The translations under genes were made by a program, and so were the position numbers. Of a stretch of DNA of 64,000 bases, positions 37,884 through 48,370 are shown piece by piece; position 1 is the first letter of the stretch, and the number at the start of each line of letters is the position of its first letter. The stretch is from Bradyrhizobium sp. 186 (GTDB lineage Bacteria; Pseudomonadota; Alphaproteobacteria; Rhizobiales; Xanthobacteraceae). The notes beneath the pieces were generated by a model. That model did no database searches, was not told the origin of the DNA, and worked only from the letters and a program-made list of their open reading frames with translations. The stretch covers positions 5,084,001 through 5,148,000 of the forward strand of contig NZ_CP082164.1 of assembly GCF_023101685.1 (NCBI RefSeq), read 5' to 3'.

Positions 37884-38580
37884 GTTTCTTGCTCCCTTGG
37901 ATGGATGGAGGGTTTTTGGTTTGGGCCGGACCGGCGGGAGCATCAGATAGCAGGAAAATGGGATGAGGGGCAGGGGGCGATTGCACATGCGCGTGAGGGC
38001 GAAACGGCTGGTGGAAGTAAACCAGCCAAGCCTGACCAAGCCGCAGAGTCAGCAGGGTGGCGATGGCGAATGAGTTCAATGCACTGTCGCCGTGTGCGCC
38101 CTGAAGGCGTGTGTCTCTAGTGGAGGAGGATTCCACCCGGATAATTGTCGATTGATCTGGTAGCTGACGAGCGACTTGGCTGGGTGACCGGCTGGGTCGG
38201 AGCCTCGTGACAAAGGTCGCTTTGGGCGGCTGAGCAATCCAGCGGGCCGTAACGTGAGTGAAGCCTGAGCAGGCCTCGAAAGGCAAGACGCGGATGCCGA
38301 CCCGCCACGGTGATGGGAAGGCCGCACGAACAGGGAAGCAATCGACGAGCGCACCTGTTCGATCCGCCGGGGTATTGGGCGCGGCACGTTGGAAGAGAGA
38401 TACGGGTCATCAGGGAGACCCGCGTGGACGAGGATTGTACTTCAACGCCATCACAGGATGGCGGCCCGCGCGGGAGTCGGAGAGGGACGTTGTACTGTCG
38501 AGGCCGGGTAACGCCGGCGGAGGGAAGGTCCCTTGCTTCAGACGTGCTTTTCGAAGAAGGAAAGGAAACGGTGATTGGCG

Positions 38581-39095
38581 ATGAGCCTCGAAACGCCGGA
38601 TAAGATCAGGACCCTTCAGAGAAAGCTTTATTGCAAGGCGAAGGCGGAGCCCGCTTTCCGCTTCTATCTGCTCTACGACAAGATATGTCGGCCGGACATT
38701 CTGGCCCATGCCTGGGAACTCGCTCGTTCCAATGACGGCGCGCCTGGGGTGGACAGGGTGAGTTTTGCGGACATTGAGCGGTCCGGAGTGGATCAGTGGT
38801 TGGCGGCGCTACGCGAGGACCTTACCTCGATGTCGTACCGGCCCGCGCCGGTGCGGCGGGTGATGATCCCGAAACCGGGAGGTGGAGAACGCCCGTTGGG
38901 GATTCCCACGATTCGCGATCGGGTGGCGCAGACCGCCGCCAAGCTGGTGCTGGAACCGATCTTCGAGGCGGATCTGGAAGACAGTGCTTATGGGTACAGG
39001 CCAAAACGCAGCGCTGTCGATGCCATCGGAAAGACCAACCGGTTGATCCGGCAGGGCTTCACCGATGTGGTCGACGCCGATCTGTCGCGCTACTT
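38581..39095 (+). pseudogene. Group II intron 1 reverse transcriptase, 5' part
   Basis: 172 residues of an LtrA-type protein. It begins MSLETPDKIRTLQRKLYCKA, has RT motifs 0-2 (NDGAPGVDRVSF, YRPAPVRRVMIPKPGGGERP, LGIPTIRDRVAQTAAKLVLE), then the YGYRPKRSA segment and the start of domain 3 (DVVDADLSRY). The reading breaks exactly where the catalytic-domain sequence should read ..FDTIPH; that sequence is found at 41850. The frame then runs about 12 foreign codons into the inserted element. Confidence 0.9.
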
Positions 39096-39122
39096 GGACA
39101 CCGCTTCATATTGCCCCCTGGT

Positions 39123-41333
39123 TCATGAGGTTTGATCGAAGAGTTCGGATTGCCGGGTTATCACCTTGATCCGGATTCCCTTTTTCCTGCCATTCGTGAC
39201 GTGCACGACTTCGAGCTCGCCGCGCTTGACACGCTGCAACACGGTTTGGCGCGAGACACCGAGCTTGCGGGTTGCCTCGTGCATGGTCACGAAGCCGTCC
39301 CCAGCAGTCTCGCTGAATCGGGCGATGAGGTCATCGGTCAGGCGAATGCGCCAGGGTGCGCCGGGCGTCAGCTGCTCGCCCGGAATGATGCCGTCGTTGA
39401 GCCAGCGGTGCAAAGTCGAAGGGGCGACGCCGAGCACGACCGCGGCCTTGCTGATGGTCAGCAGTTCGCCTCCGGCTTGCTCGGCCTTCGGCTCGAAGCA
39501 CGGGATATCCCAGTGGCGACGCAGATTGCCGACGCGGCTTGCCTCGAAGCGATGGCCGTATGCTGTGGCGCGCCCCTGGCGATTGAGAATGCCGGCGATC
39601 ACGGCGTCGGGATAATGCCCCGCCAGCCGGCGGACGAGCGCGATCGTGTCCTCATCGGTGCGTATCGTGGCCGGCCGCGAGCGCGGCAGCGCGAGATCGA
39701 TCTCGTTGAGCGCGCCGCCCTTCCAGCGCAGCGTGAGGTGGGCTGCAGCCTTGTCGCGCTCGACCTTTATGATGACCTCCTCGAGCAATGCTCGCAGCAG
39801 CTCTTTCCTGTCACGCGGCGTGGTCGTTGCCGCGTGCCAGACGGTGGCAAGATCGGGCCCGAGCGCGAGCAGACGGTCGCGCTCCTCTTGGGAGAGCACG
39901 CGTGGACGCTCCCGTTCGCGGCGTGCAAGCTCGGCCTTGGCGGCTTCGAGTGCGCTCAAGCTCTCCTCCCACTCGCGCTCCAGGCCGCGAGCGACCAACC
40001 GGTTGTCTGGATCGACGGCACGGTAGCGGCGCTCGGCGCGGCTCGCTTCGTAGCTTGCTCGCTCGACGCCGAGACGCCATTGCTTGAGCGAGGTATCGCG
40101 ATCTGCTTCGAGCCGCTCGGCAGCGGCGAGCGTGGCAGCGAGCTTTGCCGGCTCGAGGGCGGCGATGAAGGCCCGCGTGACGGCCTCGTCGATCTGAATG
40201 CCGCCAATGTTGAGGCAATAGACGCCGCGGCCCTCGACCAGGATCTTGCCGGGGCAATGATACCCCGGTGCGGAACTGCGCCCGCGATAGTGCGTGTGCA
40301 AGCGGCGTCCGCAGTGCCCGCAGCTGGCAAGGCTCTGCAGCAGGGCGCTGCCCTCCCTCACGGCGCCACCCACTTTGTGCGGTCCGGGGCGGGTGTTCTT
40401 GGCGATGCGATCCTGGTTGGCCTCATAGGTCTGCCAATCGATGAACCCCGGATGATGGTCCGGGATGAGTACCTGCCACTCGGAGCGCGGCAGTTGTCGC
40501 ACGCGCTTTGTGCGTGCACCCGCTGCATCCAGCATCGTCTCCTGGCGTGATTTGCCATAGGCGTAGGCGCCAGCATAGACGGGATTTGTGAGCACGTGGT
40601 GGATGGCGGTGTAGCTGGCCTCGACCCAGCGGATCTCTGCGTTCTGGTGCATCTGCAGAGGGAATGTGAGCCCTTCCGAGCGAAACCATAGCCAGACGCG
40701 GCGCGCCGAGCCCGTTTCGGCGAAGCGCGCGAAGACGTTGCGGACGGCGGTGACAATGGCCTCGTCGGGGTGGAAGCGGACCTCGCCATCGGCCTCGCCC
40801 CAGACAAAGCCGACCGGCAATCCTCGGCGGAGTTCACCGCGTGCTGCCTTGTTGCGAATGCCGCCGTTGAGGCGGGCCCTCAGCACATGCAGCTCGGCCT
40901 CGCTCATGGTGCCCTTGAGCCCGAGCAGGAGGCGATCATTGAAGAGGGCTGGATGATAGATGCCATCTGCATCGCCGATCAGCGTGTCGGTGAGGCCGCC
41001 GAGGTCGATGAGGCGGTGCCAATCGGCGTTGTTGCGCGCCAGGCGCGAGACCTCGAGTCCGAGCACGAGGCCGACGTGGGCGAGTGCGACTTCGGCGGTG
41101 AGGCGGGCGAAGCCCGATCTCGCAACAAAGCCGGAACCGGAGAGCCCGAGGTCCTCATCGATGACGATGATGCGATCATTGGGCCAGCCAAGTTCACGGG
41201 CTTTGGCGGCAAGCGCATACTGTCGATCGGTCGACTCGCGATTGTGCTCGACCTGGGCGGCGCTCGACTGGCGCAGGTAGACGATGGCCTGGCGGGACAG
41301 ATGGCTGGCCGTGATCTTGGCGCGTTCATTCAT
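39123..41333 (-). CDS. Large serine recombinase
   Basis: The 736-residue protein is intact. Its resolvase/invertase N-domain (IVYLRQSSAAQVEHNRES, with the nucleophilic Ser in the RQSS segment near residue 24; EVSRLARN near 95) is followed by a Recombinase domain. A zinc ribbon (SCGHCGRRLHTHYRG with a later YHCPGK) and a coiled coil of about 60 residues come next. Unusually, two helix-turn-helix segments lie at the C-terminus (TISKAAVVLGVAPSTLHRWL and TMHEATRKLGVSRQTVLQRV). It would catalyse excision and integration of the element. The start overlaps the preceding small ORF by 8 bp. Confidence 0.93.
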   Translation of the reverse strand: MNERAKITASHLSRQAIVYLRQSSAAQVEHNRESTDRQYALAAKARELGWPNDRIIVIDEDLGLSGSGFVARSGFARLTAEVALAHVGLVLGLEVSRLARNNADWHRLIDLGGLTDTLIGDADGIYHPALFNDRLLLGLKGTMSEAELHVLRARLNGGIRNKAARGELRRGLPVGFVWGEADGEVRFHPDEAIVTAVRNVFARFAETGSARRVWLWFRSEGLTFPLQMHQNAEIRWVEASYTAIHHVLTNPVYAGAYAYGKSRQETMLDAAGARTKRVRQLPRSEWQVLIPDHHPGFIDWQTYEANQDRIAKNTRPGPHKVGGAVREGSALLQSLASCGHCGRRLHTHYRGRSSAPGYHCPGKILVEGRGVYCLNIGGIQIDEAVTRAFIAALEPAKLAATLAAAERLEADRDTSLKQWRLGVERASYEASRAERRYRAVDPDNRLVARGLEREWEESLSALEAAKAELARRERERPRVLSQEERDRLLALGPDLATVWHAATTTPRDRKELLRALLEEVIIKVERDKAAAHLTLRWKGGALNEIDLALPRSRPATIRTDEDTIALVRRLAGHYPDAVIAGILNRQGRATAYGHRFEASRVGNLRRHWDIPCFEPKAEQAGGELLTISKAAVVLGVAPSTLHRWLNDGIIPGEQLTPGAPWRIRLTDDLIARFSETAGDGFVTMHEATRKLGVSRQTVLQRVKRGELEVVHVTNGRKKGIRIKVITRQSELFDQTS

Positions 41334-41511
41334 CGCTTGCCTCCCTCGTCGACCTGGCCGAGATCATGCGGGCGATGAGACGTGCGAGGATCTCGAGCGC
41401 TGCGACGCGCGAGGCTTCGTCGAGCTGCTCCCACGCCGTCGCCGACGGGGCTGCTGGAAAGGGGTTCGGTGGAAGATCGGGGCGGTCGAGAAAGGCCAGG
41501 TTCAGTTGCAT
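41326..41511 (-). CDS. Small element-associated protein
   Basis: The 61-residue ORF beginning MQLNLAFLDRPDLPPNPFP, with AWEQLDEASRVAALEILARL as a probable amphipathic helix, precedes and overlaps the recombinase start. Its position and the very short overlap suggest co-translation. I recall similar short ORFs before such recombinases in Bradyrhizobium, role unknown. Confidence 0.65.
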   Translation of the reverse strand: MQLNLAFLDRPDLPPNPFPAAPSATAWEQLDEASRVAALEILARLIARMISARSTREASDE

Positions 41512-41755
41512 GGTTGCGCTCCTTGCACTGCACCGACTCGACGGGTCGGTCGTAGAGAGCGTCAATGATCTTGCGCAGGTGGAGCAAATCGCCAAGCCGG
41601 CCGAGATCGTGGGCACCACCAGCATCGTTCGCCGGCGTTCGCCTTGCCTGCTCGGCGTTCCAATCGGTCCAATTGGCCGGAATCAGCGAGCGGCTACCGT
41701 CTGGCAAGACCACGAGAACGAGGAGGACGCCGCGCCGCCGGATGCTGCTGATCAC
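41330..41755 (-). CDS. DUF5372-like accessory ORF of the recombinase element
   Basis: The upstream end of this frame encodes SSIRRRGVLLVLVVLPDGSR and SLIPANWTDWNAEQ, a beta-rich segment resembling DUF5372 proteins found with serine recombinases. Open sequence continues above 41755 toward the element end (TITRERHAFEGQSLAV), so the true start is probably a non-ATG codon near 41790-41840. The 3' half overlaps the 61-residue ORF in another frame and may not be conserved coding. Confidence 0.45.
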   Translation of the reverse strand: MISSIRRRGVLLVLVVLPDGSRSLIPANWTDWNAEQARRTPANDAGGAHDLGRLGDLLHLRKIIDALYDRPVESVQCKERNHATEPGLSRPPRSSTEPLSSSPVGDGVGAARRSLARRSARDPRTSHRPHDLGQVDEGGKR

Positions 41756-41849
41756 GGCCAGCGACTGGCCTTCGAAGGCGTGGCGCTCGCGGGTGATGGT
41801 CAGCGAATCTGGAATATCACGGTGATGGGTAGTCTGTGGCCGCTTCCTT

Positions 41850-42657
41850 CGACACGATCCCGCATGGAGACTTACTCCGATGCGTGGCGCGCCGCGTCTC
41901 GGACCGGCACGTGCTGCGGCTGATCAAGCTGTGGCTGCGCGTTCCGGCCGAGGAACGGGATGGCAACGGAAGACGGCGCATGATTGGTGGCAAGAGCAAC
42001 AAGCAGGGCACGCCGCAAGGCGGCGTGATCAGCCCATTGCTGGCTAACCTCTACATGAACCGCTTCCTGAAGCTGTGGCGGCTGAGGCGGTGTGACGAGG
42101 CATTCCGCGCCCATCTTGTCAACTATGCCGACAACTTCGTCATTCTCAGCCGCGGACACGCGCATGAGGCCTTGGCGTGGACGGCGGCGGTGATGACCAG
42201 ACTCGGGCTGAGCATCAACGAGGAGAAGACCTCGGTGAAGGACGCCCGCACGGAAAGCTTCGACTTCCTCGGTTATACGTTCGGACCGAAATACAGCGGT
42301 TCGAACGGCCAAAAGTACCTCGGCGCAAGTCCATCCAGAAAGAGCTTGAAGCGGATCAAGACCAAGATCGGCGGTGTGCTGGTGCCGGGAAACAAGGGCT
42401 CGTGGCCACAAGTAAAGCACCGACTAAACGGCATGTTGGCCGGATGGTCGGCCTACTTCAGCTACGGGACGCTTGCTCCGGCCTATCGGGCGGTCGATCG
42501 TCACGTCTACACCCGTGTCAGGCGCTTCCTCGCCAAGCGGCACAAGGTCAGCGGAAGCGGTACGCGCAGTTTCTCCATGAAGACCATCTTCGGAGAACTC
42601 GGCGTGCATCGCCTCACCCGCATTCAACCTCGCGCCGTCCCCGTGGACCTGCAGTGA
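41850..42657 (+). pseudogene. Group II intron 1 reverse transcriptase, 3' part
   Basis: It continues the RT from the codons reading FDTIPHGDLLRCVARRV. It has QGGVISPLLANLYMNRF (motif 4), the catalytic motif as NYADNFVILSRG, the thumb, and the maturase X domain (LNGMLAGWSAYFSYGT). The usual YADD is YADN here, so the second catalytic Asp is replaced by Asn. Together with the insertion, this RT is doubly inactivated. Confidence 0.88.
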
Positions 42658-43231
42658 AGTCTGTCGGAAAGCCGGATGCGGGGTGTGCTGCAGATGCACA
42701 CGGAAGGGGGTTTGCAGTGAACAACTGACCGTGGGGATAAGCTGCGCGAAAGATGAGGGCGGGCCCCTCGGGATCGGCTTTCAGGAGCAGGTCCCAAACC
42801 AGTCCAAGCTGCTGCGTTCAAAAGGCGTGGTGGTGAGCGTTGGATCAAAAGTCCGAATGAAATTCGGGCAGGTGAGCATTCGAGAGACGAGCGTGAGCAA
42901 ACCCTCGGTGACGCGCCGAAAGGCTTTAGACACTGCCAAAACCAGAGGCGCTCGCATCCTCTGGGATAAATCTGTCGGTTACCTGGTTACTGGGCAGATA
43001 GCAGTCGGCGTATAGGGGGCGTGAAGCGGATGCAGGCTTTCGTGTGGAACTGCAGGAACCAGTCCCTGGATGCCAAGGGAGAAGCTGAAGCGGCCAAAAC
43101 TGCGAGGCGAGAGTACCGAAGCCAGGGCCTGGGGCGGACCGACCCGTACTAGCGGTGAAGGCCCCGTAATCGGGCCGGAGCAAAGGGGTCGGGTCAGGAC
43201 AAATCGTATTGACGTACCAACTGGAAACAGG

Positions 43232-43935
43232 ATGACGACGACGATCACGACAAACAAGCCGTTTCATATCGATAAGAAACGTGTGTACGACGCTTACAAA
43301 GCGGTCAAATCCAATGCGGGTTCGGCCGGTGTGGATGGACAGACGATCGAGCAGTTCGACTCCGACTTGCAGAACAATCTCTACAAGCTTTGGAATCGGA
43401 TGAGCTCGGGAAGCTACTTTCCTCCACCGGTGCGCGCCGTCTCCATTCCCAAAAAGGCTGGAGGCCAGAGGATTTTAGGTGTGCCAACCGTAGCGGATCG
43501 AGTGGCCCAGATGGTTGTCAAACAACTCATTGAGCCGGACTTGGACCCAATATTTTTGGCAGACTCCTATGGCTATCGGCCGAGAAAATCGGCACTCGAT
43601 GCTATCGGCGTCACGCGCAAGCGGTGCTGGAAATACGACTGGGTTCTCGAGTTCGACATCAAAGGTCTGTTCGACAACATCGACCACGAACTTTTGCTAC
43701 GGGCTGTCCGGAAGCACGTGACGTGCAAGTGGGCGCTGCTCTACATCGAACGATGGCTGACGGTACCTATGGACAAGGATGGAATAATTATCGAGCGAAC
43801 CCGCGGCACCCCTCAGGGTGGCGTGATTAGCCCTATATTATCCAACCTTTTCCTGCACTACACTTCGACCTCTGGATGGGACGGGCGCACCCCAACCTCC
43901 CATGGTGTAGGTATGCAGACGATGGCCTAGTGGCT
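43232..43935 (+). pseudogene. Group II intron 2 reverse transcriptase, 5' part
   Basis: The start ATG at 43232 encodes MTTTITTNKPFHIDKKRVYD, then RT motifs SNAGSAGVDGQTIEQF, VRAVSIPKKAGGQRILGVPT, EFDIKGLFDNIDHELLL and RGTPQGGVISPILSNLFLHY. Near 43863 one T is missing: the next frame continues correctly with FDLWMGRAHPNLPWCRYADD, so the YADD motif is present but out of frame. The coding is then cut by the IS at 43936. Confidence 0.88.
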
Positions 43936-43937
43936 CA

Positions 43938-45068
43938 TCACAGTGATTTTGACTCTTTGGCGGTGGCTGGATAGGCGCGGCCGAGTTTGGCGCGGGCCTT
44001 GTCGGTTGTGAACATCCATTTGATGCGGGCTCGGGTTTTATTCCGCCGCTTTTGCCATGCTGCGATCTCGTTTCGGAGCCTTTTTGGGTCGTCGATGCGG
44101 CGGCCGAGGCACTGGCGCTGGAGCACGCTGATCTCGCACTCGACCATATTGAGCCAACTGGCGTGTTTCGGGGTGAAGTGGAATTCGAGGCGGCGCAGGA
44201 TGCGACGGGCCTCGGCAGGCGCAAATGCTTGATACAACGCGCCGGCGGTATGGATCGACAGATTGTCCTACACGAGGCGGATGCAGTCGGCGTCGGGATA
44301 ATGGACGTCGACGAGTTCGCGCATGCAGTAGGCGTAGTCCACGGCGGCGCGGTGCTCGGTGACCTTGACGTTGCGCCAGCCACGATGCGGGTCGAAGGTA
44401 ACGAAGAGATTGACGGTGCCGTTGCGGCGGTACTCGTAATCGTAACGCTCGCGCTGTCCCGGCTCGGCTGGAATCGGCTGACGGACCTCGCCGATGAGCT
44501 GGACGGGGGTCTCGTCGAAGCAGACCAGCGGCCGGACGGGATCCGGCGCCTCGGCGTAGAGGTCGAGCACGTCCTCCATGCGGGCGACGTATTCGCCGTC
44601 GACATAGGGGATGCACCACATGTCCCTGCGCCATGGCTTGAGGTCGTTCTCGGCCAGCCGGCGACGCACGGTCTCGCCCGACAGGCTGTCATGATCGGTG
44701 AGCTTGACCATCGTGTCCGCCAGCAGCGTCAGCGTCCAACGTTTGCGGCCGGCGGGCGGCTTGGCGCACGCCGTCGCCACCAGCAGGGCCTCCTCCTTGC
44801 CGGTCAATTTGCGCTCTGCGCCCGGACGCGGTTCCTCGCTCAAGGCCCGCTCCAGATTGCCTTCCACGAAGCGGCGCTTGGTCCGGCCGATGCTGGACAG
44901 GCTGACCCGGACAGACCGGGCAATCTCCGCGTCGCAACTGCCGGCATCGGCCGCCAGCAAAATCTGCGCCCGCTTGAGCTTGCGGGCAGCATGCTTCCCG
45001 CCGCCCAGCATCGCCGTCAGTTCGTCCCGCTCGATTTGGCTCAATTCGACCCGATAACGTACATTCAT
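43938..45068 (-). pseudogene. IS630-family transposase with internal amber codon
   Basis: The 376-codon frame starts MNVRYRVELSQIERDELTAM. It has an HTH N-domain (CDAEIARSVRVSLSSIGRTK) and the DDE catalytic residues in CFDETPVQLIG (first Asp), DNLSIH (second Asp) and LNMVECEISVLQ (Glu). A TAG at 44268-44270 replaces the expected Gln codon one position before the second catalytic Asp; the frame is otherwise open on both sides. One nonsense change therefore makes this copy non-autonomous. Confidence 0.9.
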
Positions 45069-45106
45069 GCTTCGCCTCCTTGTCGGAGGCCGGGACGAAT
45101 CCAGCG

Positions 45107-45388
45107 ATGAGTCAAAAATCAGGCACGCACTTCACGGAGAAGCAGGGACACTACCTGGCCTTTATCTACACCTACGCGCACATGTTCGGACGCCCACCCG
45201 CCGAAACCGACATGCAGCGCCATTTCCGCGTCAGCCCGCCTTCGGTCCACCAGATGATCGTCACCCTCGAACGAAACGGTTTCATTCGCCGTCAACCTGG
45301 CGTCCCCAGAAGCATCGAAATCCTCGTGCCGCCGGAAAGCTTGCCGATCCTCGAATGGCTCGGTATCAAAACGTCAAAATCACTGTGA
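45107..45388 (+). CDS. LexA-type winged-helix passenger protein of the IS
   Basis: The 93-residue protein consists only of a LexA-like DNA-binding domain: QGHYLAFIYTYAHMFGRPP, ETDMQRHFRVSPPSVHQMIV (recognition helix) and LERNGFIRRQPGVPRSIEIL. There is no LexA peptidase domain. It is divergent from the transposase and its stop codon lies inside the right terminal repeat, so it is part of the IS. It may control transposase expression (inference). Confidence 0.8.
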   Translation: MSQKSGTHFTEKQGHYLAFIYTYAHMFGRPPAETDMQRHFRVSPPSVHQMIVTLERNGFIRRQPGVPRSIEILVPPESLPILEWLGIKTSKSL

Positions 45389-45390
45389 TG

Positions 45391-45951
45391 AAGCACTGCC
45401 GGAGCGAGCAAGAAGCGGAAGCCCTAAAGGCCGAGCTACAAACTCGCCTGGCAGAATGCGGGCTTGAGATGCACCCCACCAAAACCAGGATTGTCTACTG
45501 TAAGGACAGCCGGCGGAAGGGGAGCTATTCGAACGTCAAGTTTGACTTCCTTGGCTACTGCTTCCGGCCGCGACGGGCAAAGAACTCACAAGACGCCTCG
45601 GTGTTTTGCAGTTTTCTGCCTGGGGTCAGCGCTTCGGCGCTGAAGTCTATGCGGGCGGCAATCCGGGATTTGAACCTCCGAAGACGGACCCATGTGTCAA
45701 TGGCTGACATCGCTCGGCAGCTCAATCCACTCCTGCGGGGGTGGATTGAGTATTACGGTCGATTCACGCGGGCGGCTCTGGGGCCAATCCTTCGATACGT
45801 CAATCAGACAATCGAGGCTTGGATGATGCGGAAGTTCAAACGCTTTATGGGTCGCAAGGCCAAGACCGGCCGCGTTCTCGAACGACTATCTCGCGAACGT
45901 CCCGGGTTGTTCGCACACTGGAAGATCGGCATACGCGGCTCGTTCGCCTGA
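45391..45951 (+). pseudogene. Group II intron 2 reverse transcriptase, 3' part
   Basis: Resumes immediately after the IS with HCRSEQEAEALKAELQTRLA, then the thumb/X domain (FLGYCFRPRRAKNS, LNPLLRGWIEYYGRFTRAAL) and the C-terminal RERPGLFAHWKIGIRG. Joined to the 5' part it forms one typical maturase of about 420 residues, apart from the frameshift. Confidence 0.88.
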
Positions 45952-46155
45952 TGGGAGCCCAGTGAGGCGAGAGTCTCACGCTGGGATCTATGAGAGGCCG
46001 GCGGTGAGATTCCGCCGGCCTACTCGACAAATCCGCACGTCCGGTTTGATGAGCGGGGAAGGGAGACGGGGCGTTGCCGAATGGCCCAAGCTACCGCGCC
46101 CTTCCTCGACTCTACAATTCCAGAATTGAGAAACGAAGTTCTCCAGTAGGTCGCT

Positions 46156-46481
46156 ATGCTCGTTTGTTATCTCGACGACAGCGGGAAGGACGCTCAGAAC
46201 CCGATAACAACAATCGCGGGTTACCTTGCGAGCGAAGATTCTTGGGCAGCATTCGAAACGGAGGTCGAGCCGTATTTCACTGAAAGGAAGGTGTCAGTGC
46301 TTCATGCTCTCGACCTCCACGGTACTCGTGGTGAGTTCAAGGGCTGGCCTGTTCTTAGTAAGCAGGCGTTTGTCGCACGGATAGCGCAAGTTGCCTGCAA
46401 GCACGTCAGTTTCGGCGTTAGCATGTCGGCCGAAAAAGGAAACTACAAAGACAATTCGATGTACCGGGCTGACACGTCTAG
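46156..46481 (+). pseudogene. DUF3800 protein, 5' part, split by IS1182
   Basis: Begins MLVCYLDDSGKDAQNPITTI, the DUF3800 N-terminus with an Asp-Asp-Ser core resembling RNase H-fold nucleases, and runs to YRADTS. Removing the IS1182 element and one CTAG joins it in frame to 47965-48370, with no base lost. The full protein would be about 243 residues. Confidence 0.85.
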
Positions 46482-47960
46482 GAGCCTGTCCGAGTAATCG
46501 GATTTTTCTCGACGAAGCACAAGCGTCGTGATTCAAACGGCGGATGAGCAAGACATTTCGTCCTTGGGACGTTGATCAGGTTTGGCTGCTGCCGCCGTCG
46601 GTCCAGGATTTGGTGCCTCCCGGGCACGTGGCCCACTTTGTTCGCGACACGGTTCGCACGGGTTTGGACCTGTCGGCGATCATGGATGCCTACGACGAGG
46701 AGCGCGGCTTTCCGCCCTATCATCCTGGCATGATGGTGGCGCTGCTGCTTTATGCTTACAGCCAGGGGATCTACTCGTCGCGCAGGATCGCTCGGGGCTG
46801 CGAGGAGCGGCTGGATTTTGCGGCAGTAACGGGGATGCAGCGTCCGGACTTCCGCACGATCAGCGAGTTCCGCAAGCGCCATCTGGCCGCGCTATCGGGC
46901 CTGTTCCGGCAGGTCTTGAAGCTGTGCCGCGAGGCCGGCCTTGTGAAGCTTGGCCATGTGGCGCTCGATGGCACCAAGATCAAGGCCAATGCCGGGATCA
47001 ACAAGGCGATGAGCTATGGCCGGATGAAAGAGGCCGAACCGAGGCTTGCTGCCGAAGTCCAACGCTGGTTCGCCGAAGCCGCTCAGACCGACAAGGCCGA
47101 GGACCGCCAGTTCGGAGCCTTGAAGCGCGGCGACGAGATGCCGGACTGGATGGCCAATAAAGAGAAGCGGCTCGAGAAGATCCGGGCCGCCAAGGCCGCG
47201 CTGGAAGCCGAAGCCAAGGCTGCTGCCGAAACCAAAGCCGCCTCGAAGCCGGACGACGACGGCTCCGGCGACGGCGGCAGGGGCCGGCCGGGACGCAAGT
47301 CCAAGCCTGTCACGGCAGAGCCGAGCGACAAGGCGCAACGCAACTTCACCGATCCCGACAGCCGCGTGATGCCGACCAAAAACGGCTTCATCCAGGGCTA
47401 CAACGCACAGGCCGCCGTCGATGGCGCCCATCAGATCATCGTGGCGCACACGCTGACCAACTCGCCGAGCGATCAGGCGCAGCTCGCACCCTTGCTCGAT
47501 GCCATCAAAGCCAATCTCGGGACGAACCCGGATGAAGCATCGGCCGATGCGGGCTATTGCTCGCAAGCCAATCTTCGCACGCTCGTTCGACGCCGGATCG
47601 AGGGCTACGTCGCCACTGGACGGCAAAAGCACGGCACCAAGGCGGCCACGGCAAAAAGGAAGCTCAAATCCGGCACGCTGATCGCCAGAATGAGCACAAA
47701 GCTCAAGCGCGCAGGCTATCGAAGCCGGTATCGATTGCGAAAACAGATCGTCGAGCCCGTCTTCGGCCAGATCAAGCAGGCAAGAGGCTTCCGCCAGTTC
47801 CTCCTGCGCGGCATCGACAAGGTCAAAGCCGAATGGGCCATGATCTGCACCGCCCACAACCTCACAAAACTCGCAGCAGTACGCTAAGGAGAAACTTGTC
47901 TCCAAAAAAACGCTCAGAACTCGATTCGCTTGATCCCAAGTCCATTACCGGGACAGGCTC
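46482..47960 (+). mobile_element. IS1182-family insertion sequence
   Basis: Terminal inverted repeats begin GGAGCCTGTCC on both ends (left from 46481, right ending at 47961). CTAG is present at each border (46478-46481 and 47961-47964), the palindromic target often used by IS1182. It carries one intact transposase. Confidence 0.88.
46544..47887 (+). CDS. IS1182-family transposase
   Basis: The 447-residue DDE transposase is intact. N-terminal DUF772 region: VPPGHVAHFVRDTV and YHPGMMVALLLYAYSQGIYS. Catalytic region: HVALDGTKIKANAG (first Asp), ADAGYCSQANL (second Asp) and VEPVFGQIKQARGFRQFLLR (Glu). A charged Ala/Lys-rich linker lies at about 205-265. This copy looks competent to move. Confidence 0.93.
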   Translation: MSKTFRPWDVDQVWLLPPSVQDLVPPGHVAHFVRDTVRTGLDLSAIMDAYDEERGFPPYHPGMMVALLLYAYSQGIYSSRRIARGCEERLDFAAVTGMQRPDFRTISEFRKRHLAALSGLFRQVLKLCREAGLVKLGHVALDGTKIKANAGINKAMSYGRMKEAEPRLAAEVQRWFAEAAQTDKAEDRQFGALKRGDEMPDWMANKEKRLEKIRAAKAALEAEAKAAAETKAASKPDDDGSGDGGRGRPGRKSKPVTAEPSDKAQRNFTDPDSRVMPTKNGFIQGYNAQAAVDGAHQIIVAHTLTNSPSDQAQLAPLLDAIKANLGTNPDEASADAGYCSQANLRTLVRRRIEGYVATGRQKHGTKAATAKRKLKSGTLIARMSTKLKRAGYRSRYRLRKQIVEPVFGQIKQARGFRQFLLRGIDKVKAEWAMICTAHNLTKLAAVR

Positions 47961-47964
47961 CTAG

Positions 47965-48370
47965 AACAACCGTAGCGCCCTATACGTTTTGCTTCCAGGT
48001 TATTTGCGACTGGCTTCTCAGGGACATCCGCATAGGAAAACGCGTTCACTCGGAGGGCATCAAATTCCTGCTGGAGGCGGGGCACGACAACAACGCGCAG
48101 GCGGAGAAGGAATTCCATTGGGTTCGCAAGCACTACGGGCTGGAGAGTGTTCTTCACTCAATAGGAACAGTCGATAAGAAGGCGTGCAGGGCTATCCAGC
48201 TCGCCGACCTCATCGCTTTCTATTCTCGGCGTGATGGCGTCGCACTGTTGAAGTCGAAGGAACCTGGTGGTCCGGAATACGAAATGGACCAGATGATAAA
48301 GATCCTGTGCGAGAAGATCGTTCACCGAGGCTTTGTTGCGACGGGGTTTCACGACCGGGCGTGGGATTAA
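47965..48370 (+). pseudogene. DUF3800 protein, 3' part
   Basis: Continues with TTVAPYTFCFQVICDWLLRD and ends with the DUF3800 C-terminal motif KKACRAIQLADLIAFYSRRD (conserved Q-x-ADL). The next gene starts 3 bp after its stop, so the two formed an operon. Confidence 0.85.

Follow-up and report, generated by a model that had tools for sequence, protein, structure and literature searches.

That group II introns can home into other group II introns is already known. Here we describe a locus in a 64,000-nucleotide (nt) window of the 10.8 Mb genome of Bradyrhizobium sp. 186 (contig NZ_CP082164.1, positions 5,084,001 to 5,148,000), at which one group II intron lies inside domain V (DV) of another. 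Among the parts of a group II ribozyme, DV is the best conserved, and it corresponds to the U2/U6 core of the spliceosome. In the Euglena chloroplast psbF twintron, which Copertino and Hallick reportedly described in 1991, the inner group II intron is likewise said to sit in domain V of the outer one; that twintron differs in being organellar and in lying within a protein gene, and we know of no evidence for dedicated, repeated homing to its DV. For Methanosarcina acetivorans, the title of the original paper reportedly speaks of homing into intron open reading frames (ORFs). In the twintrons of Thermosynechococcus elongatus, F3 introns reside in F1 introns. They resemble the present case in that a mobile family with exon-binding sites (EBS) of its own homes again and again to one conserved site within other group II introns, and in that the inner copies are more alike than the outer ones, but the target there is the start of the reverse transcriptase (RT) ORF, and the inner introns lack ORFs and are related to the outer ones (Mohr et al. 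2010, PMC2882425). In M. acetivorans, too, group II introns have homed site-specifically and more than once into group II introns, with the difference that as many as five introns are nested (Zimmerly and Semper 2015, PMC4424553). In a bacterial group II twintron of Trichodesmium, the inner and outer introns are distantly related and each has a gene for an intron-encoded protein (IEP), yet this is a single case with the inner intron in domain 1, and its sequential splicing was demonstrated by experiment (Pfreundt and Hess 2015, PMC4649490). RmInt1 and RmInt2 of Sinorhizobium meliloti share an IEP without endonuclease and homing to another mobile element, although their targets are not introns but the IS630-family element ISRm2011-2 (RmInt1) and the inverted repeats of ISRm17 (RmInt2) (Toro et al. 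2018, PMC5894124). In Porphyridium, one inner intron occupies the same target site in two outer introns, but these twintrons are plastid-borne, and the two outer introns are related to each other and carry the target in DIV (Perrineau et al. 2015, PMC4476101). Dedicated, repeated homing to DV in bacteria by more than one lineage, as proposed below, is apparently new: we found neither such homing nor any other bacterial case of an intron in DV in the open-access literature searched, a scope outside which most subscription papers lie, and no paper in that literature joins group II intron and Bradyrhizobium with either twintron or domain V.

An Rfam scan of the window finds an RF02003-type core, an RF01999-type core and one DV/domain VI (DVI) pair, all on the plus strand. 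The outer intron, of the RF02003 type, spans 38094..46115 (+) with all its insertions and has a GTGTG start; its D1-D4 segment lies at 38118..38257 (+; RF02003 97.2 bits, E 2.2e-20). Its DV is split, the 5' arm AAAGCCGGATGCGGG ending at 42682 and the 3' arm AAATCCGCACGTCCGGTT starting at 46029 (46029..46046, +; delimited by comparison of the joined arms and by the DV pairing test below). Between the arms lies the inner group II intron of 3346 nt (42683..46028, +; RF01999 and RF00029, with boundaries from relatives), whose D1-D4 segment (42755..42873, +) and domains V and VI (45953..46028, +) pass their family models at 116.5 bits (RF01999) and 52.6 bits (RF00029), respectively. The inner element encodes an RT/maturase, as an open frame of 419 amino acids (aa) in the copy of Bradyrhizobium sp. 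62B (TIGR04416 424.6 bits) and as a broken one in the window. The outer element has the RF02003 D1-D4 core, and its DV and DVI are contiguous in an uninserted relative of the same genus (L059), where the 28 bases GCCGGATGCGGGAAATCCGCACGTCCGG run unbroken and are identical to the joined window arms; DV/DVI of L059 passes RF00029 at 47.8 bits (gathering score 40). These results bear out the nesting proposed in a first-pass annotation of the window, which had held that failure of the joined arms in a DV model, or their separation in relatives, would speak against it. By its architecture, with a complete intron inside another intron and specifically a group II intron within domain V, the locus is a bacterial twintron. 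With the inner intron at this position, the outer core could fold only after the inner intron had been spliced out. The outer 3' end needed correction: it had been placed at 46094, whereas relatives ending in ...CTCGACTCTAC (L059, L060 and L064) put it near 46115, with DVI and the 3' end at 46047..46115 (+; similarity to L059, L060, L063 and L064).

The outer DV is interrupted after base 13 of its 5' arm, just before the apical loop; its upper stem and loop are one base shorter than the Rfam consensus. DV pairing was tested over 12 base pairs in 12 DVs (seven joined, four uninserted and one with intron X, described below, behind it), 11 of them distinct. The pairs of the DV structure are formed in 94.7% of cells. 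This value falls to 24-50% once the partners are offset, and averages 89.3% over 500 letter shuffles, none of which reaches 94.7%. Both-sided changes occur at three pairs, and 20 of 500 shuffles give as many; in the same 12 DVs, the further pair types are within chance (148 of 500 shuffles).

Sequence comparison indicates that the inner element is very probably a mobile group II intron homing into the DV apex of various outer types, and that this DV homing is recurrent. The 5' part of the inner intron was searched against 265 genus genomes, with about two candidates scored per genome so that counts are lower bounds, and against 72,556 plasmids. At least seven close copies, read at both ends and 96.3-100% identical over the 5' 548 nt, were found: the window copy, a second copy in the window genome (L043), L039 (G141), L040 (G263), L041 (G043, B. 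forestalis), L042 (G212) and L008 on plasmid p1 of Bradyrhizobium sp. 62B. Six of these seven, from six genomes, occupy the same DV position, AGCCGG[A/G]TGCGGG^A[A/G]A, with the DV 3' arm beyond. Their hosts are of three types, namely the RF02003 type of the window, RF02005 (L008, with L041 assigned through 91-93% DNA similarity) and another RF02003 type (L039 and L040, with L042 assigned through 183 nt at 91%). The outer types have only short patches in common, of up to 171 nt (68% identity) for the two RF02003 types and otherwise of 26-82 nt (73-92%), and inner introns residing in different outer types are 96.4-98.8% identical; such near-identical inner introns in such distant hosts call for at least three insertions.

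These comparisons weigh on two simpler explanations. If an ordinary class D-type intron had inserted by chance and only once, without any preference for DV, then the window, which alone is one event, would be accounted for, as would the non-DV site of the second copy in the same genome and the other sites at which the related introns of 72-80% identity that were read are found. Six of seven close copies at one base position of DV in three outer types, an EBS1 complementary to DV, and a divergent intron (L076, below) with the same position and EBS1 largely refute this explanation, which we consider scarcely credible. Alternatively, a single ancestral twintron might have spread as a composite unit without repeated homing. 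L039 and L040, with their common outer sequence and similar 3' flanks, and L008 and L041, with their common outer type, would fit such a history, but the patchy similarity among outer types carrying nearly the same inner intron does not, nor do the identities within shared outer types, 89-96% for the outer introns and 95.8-98.2% for the inner. Spread as a composite is thus very improbable, and recurrent homing of the inner intron remains the preferred reading.

The inner copies all begin with GTGTG. Their 3' end reads CTACTCGAC (GAC) in the window and L043 and CTACTCGCC (GCC) in the other five (L008 and L039-L042), and their length is 1655-1886 nt in the six other copies versus 3346 nt in the window. 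By DNA search, copies on S. meliloti GR4 replicons match the 5' part at 77% identity, and the RT pieces in the window match Pfam RVT_1 and GIIM only, with no endonuclease domain; by this DNA similarity the inner intron appears RmInt1/RmInt2-like. Beyond the genus, 9 of 198 family genomes matched the apex lineage, none above 83% identity except the window's own genome, and the best such match (L095) is at another site. A sister of the inner intron, 80% identical, is present in G196 (L044 and L045). An 80.3-bit covariance-model score of the L044 5' flank hints at a placement in domain I of an RF02005 intron, which BLAST, finding no similarity to the 62B outer intron, does not confirm.

How the inner intron finds DV is suggested by its exon-binding sites. 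We aligned EBS1 of the seven copies with that of 13 relatives at other sites (13 of the 15 fetched relatives of 72-80% identity, L044-L058, leaving out L045 and L058), allowing wobble pairs and taking the best 7-mer within a stretch of 12-13 bases. At 20 of 20 loci, the EBS1 loop can pair in full (7/7) with the seven bases that close the 5' exon. The 15 distinct combinations of EBS1 with its intron-binding site (IBS1) pair at 105 of 105 bases, against a shuffled mean of 83.2 (sd 3.6), and 0 of 10000 shuffles are as good. EBS1 of the DV lineage is CUCGCAU (CUUGCAU in L042) and pairs AUGCGGG or GUGCGGG; in the window, the pairing test across loci places it at 42951..42957 (+). A probable EBS2, GGCUUU (42922..42927, +; recognized by position and complementarity), pairs AAAGCC or AGAGCC, which contains the AGC of the DV base. 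The corresponding target in the window is the outer DV 5' arm (42668..42682, +), comprising IBS2 AAAGCC (42668-42673) and IBS1 ATGCGGG (42676-42682). EBS1 and the probable EBS2 together probably read nearly the whole DV 5' strand. The L043 site pairs EBS1 fully and shows no fold beyond chance (z -1.0), which argues that a hairpin is not required. DV thus appears to be read by sequence and not as a stem-loop. The first-pass annotation had proposed that the inner intron used DV as a stem-loop target; its twintron holds by architecture, but the hairpin as such is not supported as the target, since EBS1 and the probable EBS2 pair linearly with the DV 5' strand.

The same DV apex is occupied in distant bacteria. 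A scan for the DV apex followed by GTGTGC, in one genome per species (84,980 species), returned 23 loci, three of which are DV-apex introns (L085, L076 and L079). L085 is B. forestalis again. L076, from an uncultured Clostridiales metagenome-assembled genome (MAG) that we take by its RUG name to be from rumen, is an ORF-less intron of 608 nt (RF01999 85.8 bits, RF00029 54.5 bits) inserted at GAGCCGTGTGCGGG^AAAACCGCACGCACGG, downstream of an open outer RT frame. L079 lies on a 3.1 kb contig of a goat-rumen MAG, whose assignment to Treponema is uncertain; the contig ends within the intron, so its 3' side is unseen. Both introns carry the EBS1-loop letters CTCGCAT, L079 with the same DV 5' arm. 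In a midpoint-rooted tree of 20 ribozyme sequences, a long distance separates L076 and L079 from the Bradyrhizobium introns, and the lineage of the seven copies falls among Bradyrhizobium introns with other targets; the simplest reading is that the same EBS1 was acquired independently. The other 20 loci of the scan, checked for RT motifs only, have none within 2.5 kb upstream or 3.5 kb downstream. Among 397 order genomes, the apex pattern gave two matches, the window genome and L088, the latter without an Rfam intron at the gathering score, and one match in a viral contig looks like ordinary sequence. Searches for relatives of the ORF-less apex intron returned L076 itself in 1 of 291 class genomes and, by pattern, in 1 of 181 order genomes, and a search of the L079 genus likewise returned L079 itself in 1 of 146 genomes. 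Against plasmids and phages, the ORF-less intron gave short matches only, those to plasmids covering its DV/DVI end among the matches listed.

A second lineage appears to home to DV from its other side. In L042 and L062, an RF02003-type intron of 1944 nt with the 3' end ...TCGACCCTAC, here called intron X, starts right behind the DV 3' strand (...GTCCGGTT^GTGTGTCC). A search of 262 genomes, with about two candidates scored in each, yielded at least 12 near-full-length matches at 88% identity or more, a count that omits partial matches at or above 88% (G123 89%, G256 91%, G200 97%) and an extra X at a non-DV site in L146. Nine of the 12 lie behind the DV 3' strand (L106, L139, L140, L142, L042, L143, L144, L145 and the second copy of L146). 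Hosts of X differ, the DVI after X being class D-like in L140 and L142 and window-type in L144. X-type introns of 83-84% identity also stand behind the DV 3' strand in Caballeronia sp. SBC2, Cupriavidus necator C39 and Paraburkholderia phymatum STM815. EBS1 of X is AACCGGA versus the target UCCGGUU, and in the Burkholderiaceae introns EBS1 has changed along with the target, e.g., AACCGAG versus UUCGGUU. The 24 loci give 18 distinct combinations, in which EBS1 pairs at 111 of 126 bases (shuffles: mean 95.0, sd 2.8; 0 of 10000 reach 111). Two X loci deserve separate mention. One outer DV in L042 (G212) carries both kinds of intron, the apex intron and X behind the 3' strand, and the sequence after X there is unlike the outer DVI. 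In L146 (G039:C4), X stands behind the DV of an apparent X copy, with an altered EBS1 that fits 6/7 bases.

Class C (IIC) introns insert behind terminator-type hairpins, using terminator or attC hairpins as targets; X inserts behind DV but pairs with it through EBS1. Recognition of DV as a stem-loop in single-stranded DNA would be in line with the break at the apical loop, with X directly behind the hairpin and with the folding of X sites, since 11 of 12 DV sites of X (eight of the nine above, all but L042, plus L158-L161) fold beyond shuffles, with 0-3 of 200 shuffles as low. Copies at ectopic sites argue otherwise, as they keep the IBS1 match (7/7 in L043 and L138, 6/7 in L141) without a hairpin beyond chance; besides L043, the sites of L138, L141 and L147 are matched by 116, 100 and 61 of 200 shuffles, respectively. 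EBS1 moreover covaries with the target sequence in both the apex lineage and X. A structure-guided choice of DV is therefore unlikely, and recognition by sequence through the exon-binding sites is preferred.

Viewed together, the sequences make it reasonably probable that DV is a shared homing niche, in which at least three separate group II lineages have tuned their exon-binding sites to the catalytic hairpin that other introns carry, namely the Bradyrhizobium apex lineage, the ORF-less apex lineage (the Clostridiales MAG and the goat-rumen contig) and X at the DV base in alpha- and betaproteobacteria. These introns would be hyperparasites, keeping the host off until they are spliced out, and both kinds would meet in the one outer DV of G212.

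The window locus is an intron within an intron, each with a further element in its own RT gene. The outer RT gene is split by a large serine recombinase element with Resolvase and Recombinase domains (39100..41850, -, ends approximate), which holds a recombinase gene (39123-41333) and a small ORF (41330-41755). The 5' piece of the outer RT gene (38575..39100, +) scores 29.5 bits with RVT_1 (Pfam cut-off 29.6) and is 56% identical to residues 1-258 of the L059 RT, and its 3' piece lies in an ORF (41836..42657, +; RVT_1 and GIIM) that is 62% identical to residues 169-442. The inner RT gene is both frameshifted and split by an IS630-family element (43932..45393, -; NF033545 165.2 bits; ends approximate, via L043), leaving a frameshifted 5' piece (43232..43931, +; RVT_1; tblastn 96% to residues 1-219 of the 62B RT) and a 3' piece (45389..45948, +; GIIM; tblastn 98% to residues 233-419). 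A serine recombinase element 99.6% identical to that of the window interrupts a further RT gene in this genome, which belongs to another RF02003 intron (L136), and recombinase genes interrupt the RT gene of the X-type intron in Caballeronia (L158) at a different RT position. The idea that the serine recombinase element is specific to a single RT motif was rejected, the RT position in L158 differing from that in the window and L136. Downstream of the outer intron, 46156-48370 holds a gene possibly split by an insertion sequence (DDE transposase, 46544-47887); its weak match to DUF3800 (E 0.00095, below the Pfam cut-off) concerns the right-hand ORF only.

Elsewhere, RT genes are better preserved. 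The inner RT is open over 419 residues in three of the seven copies (62B, B. forestalis and G263), frameshifted in L042 and L043, and internally deleted in L039. The outer RT is open over 469 residues in 62B, and fragmentary or partly found in five others. B. diazoefficiens NK6, like Bradyrhizobium sp. 62B a plant-nodule bacterium, has on its plasmid pNK6b open frames for both the outer RT (413 aa) and that of X (459 aa), and both pass TIGR04416. The 62B plasmid is the apex locus here at which the twintron could be alive. For the window copy, activity is doubtful because both its RT genes are broken and the RT of the second genome copy is frameshifted; on balance, neither window intron can probably be mobilized now from its own genes. 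Should all the nested introns be inactive fossils, the arrangement would be debris without present function. The insertions and frameshift in the window RT genes and the inner RT broken in four of seven copies would accord with this, but the open inner and outer RT of 62B, the open outer and X RT of pNK6b, the largely paired DV arms in the seven joined cases and the 96-99% identity between species, which indicates recent movement, do not. We regard general decay as a doubtful though tangible possibility, and continue to favor recurrent homing.

The position and boundaries of the introns, their complementarity to DV, their repeated insertion and the open RT frames on the two named plasmids are observed directly. 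From these we propose that the inner intron homes at AGCCGG[A/G]TGCGGG^A by reverse splicing guided by EBS1 and EBS2. Its forward splicing should restore the outer DV exactly, with a predicted junction in 62B of ...AGCCGGGTGCGGG/AAATCCGCCC.... The outer intron would keep its ribozyme but depend on the inner parasite, its own splicing being suspended while the inner intron is present. ORF-less and RT-broken copies would use an IEP in trans. The window would then be a decayed instance, with nesting and DV arms intact and both RT genes broken; the ORF-less divergent intron would use the same apex, and the RF02003-type intron X would home just behind the DV 3' strand.

Several points count against this proposal. 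The second copy in the window genome (L043) lies outside DV, at ATGCGAG^ACC, and three of the 12 X copies (L138, L141 and L147) also lie outside DV; the genome searches scored about two to three candidates per genome, so that copies at other sites may be missed. The outer types of L041 and L042 derive from DNA similarity (600 and 183 nt) without an Rfam hit of their own, and L039 and L040, with alike outer introns and 3' flanks, possibly reflect one event, making their independence uncertain. Group II introns usually end in AY at the 3' side, from which the CTACTCGCC ends of five of the seven inner copies depart. EBS2 was assigned by eye, with no convincing pairing in L044, and the DV before X in L145 does not fold beyond shuffles (88 of 200). 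Both RT genes of the window copy are broken and that of L043 is frameshifted. Finally, the proposal is built from sequence, and splicing and mobility are predicted.

An intron homing to DV would have a target in almost every group II intron, and the host ribozyme would come to depend on splicing of its parasite. Outer introns of this kind will escape any annotation that relies on a contiguous DV; the description of one published pipeline states that the outer intron of twintrons is undetectable to it (PMC8919778). If the proposal holds, these loci would offer a natural system for studying how selfish RNAs exploit each other and how exon-binding sites are retargeted in evolution, and would allow one to ask whether sequential splicing is enforced where the active site is itself the point of insertion.

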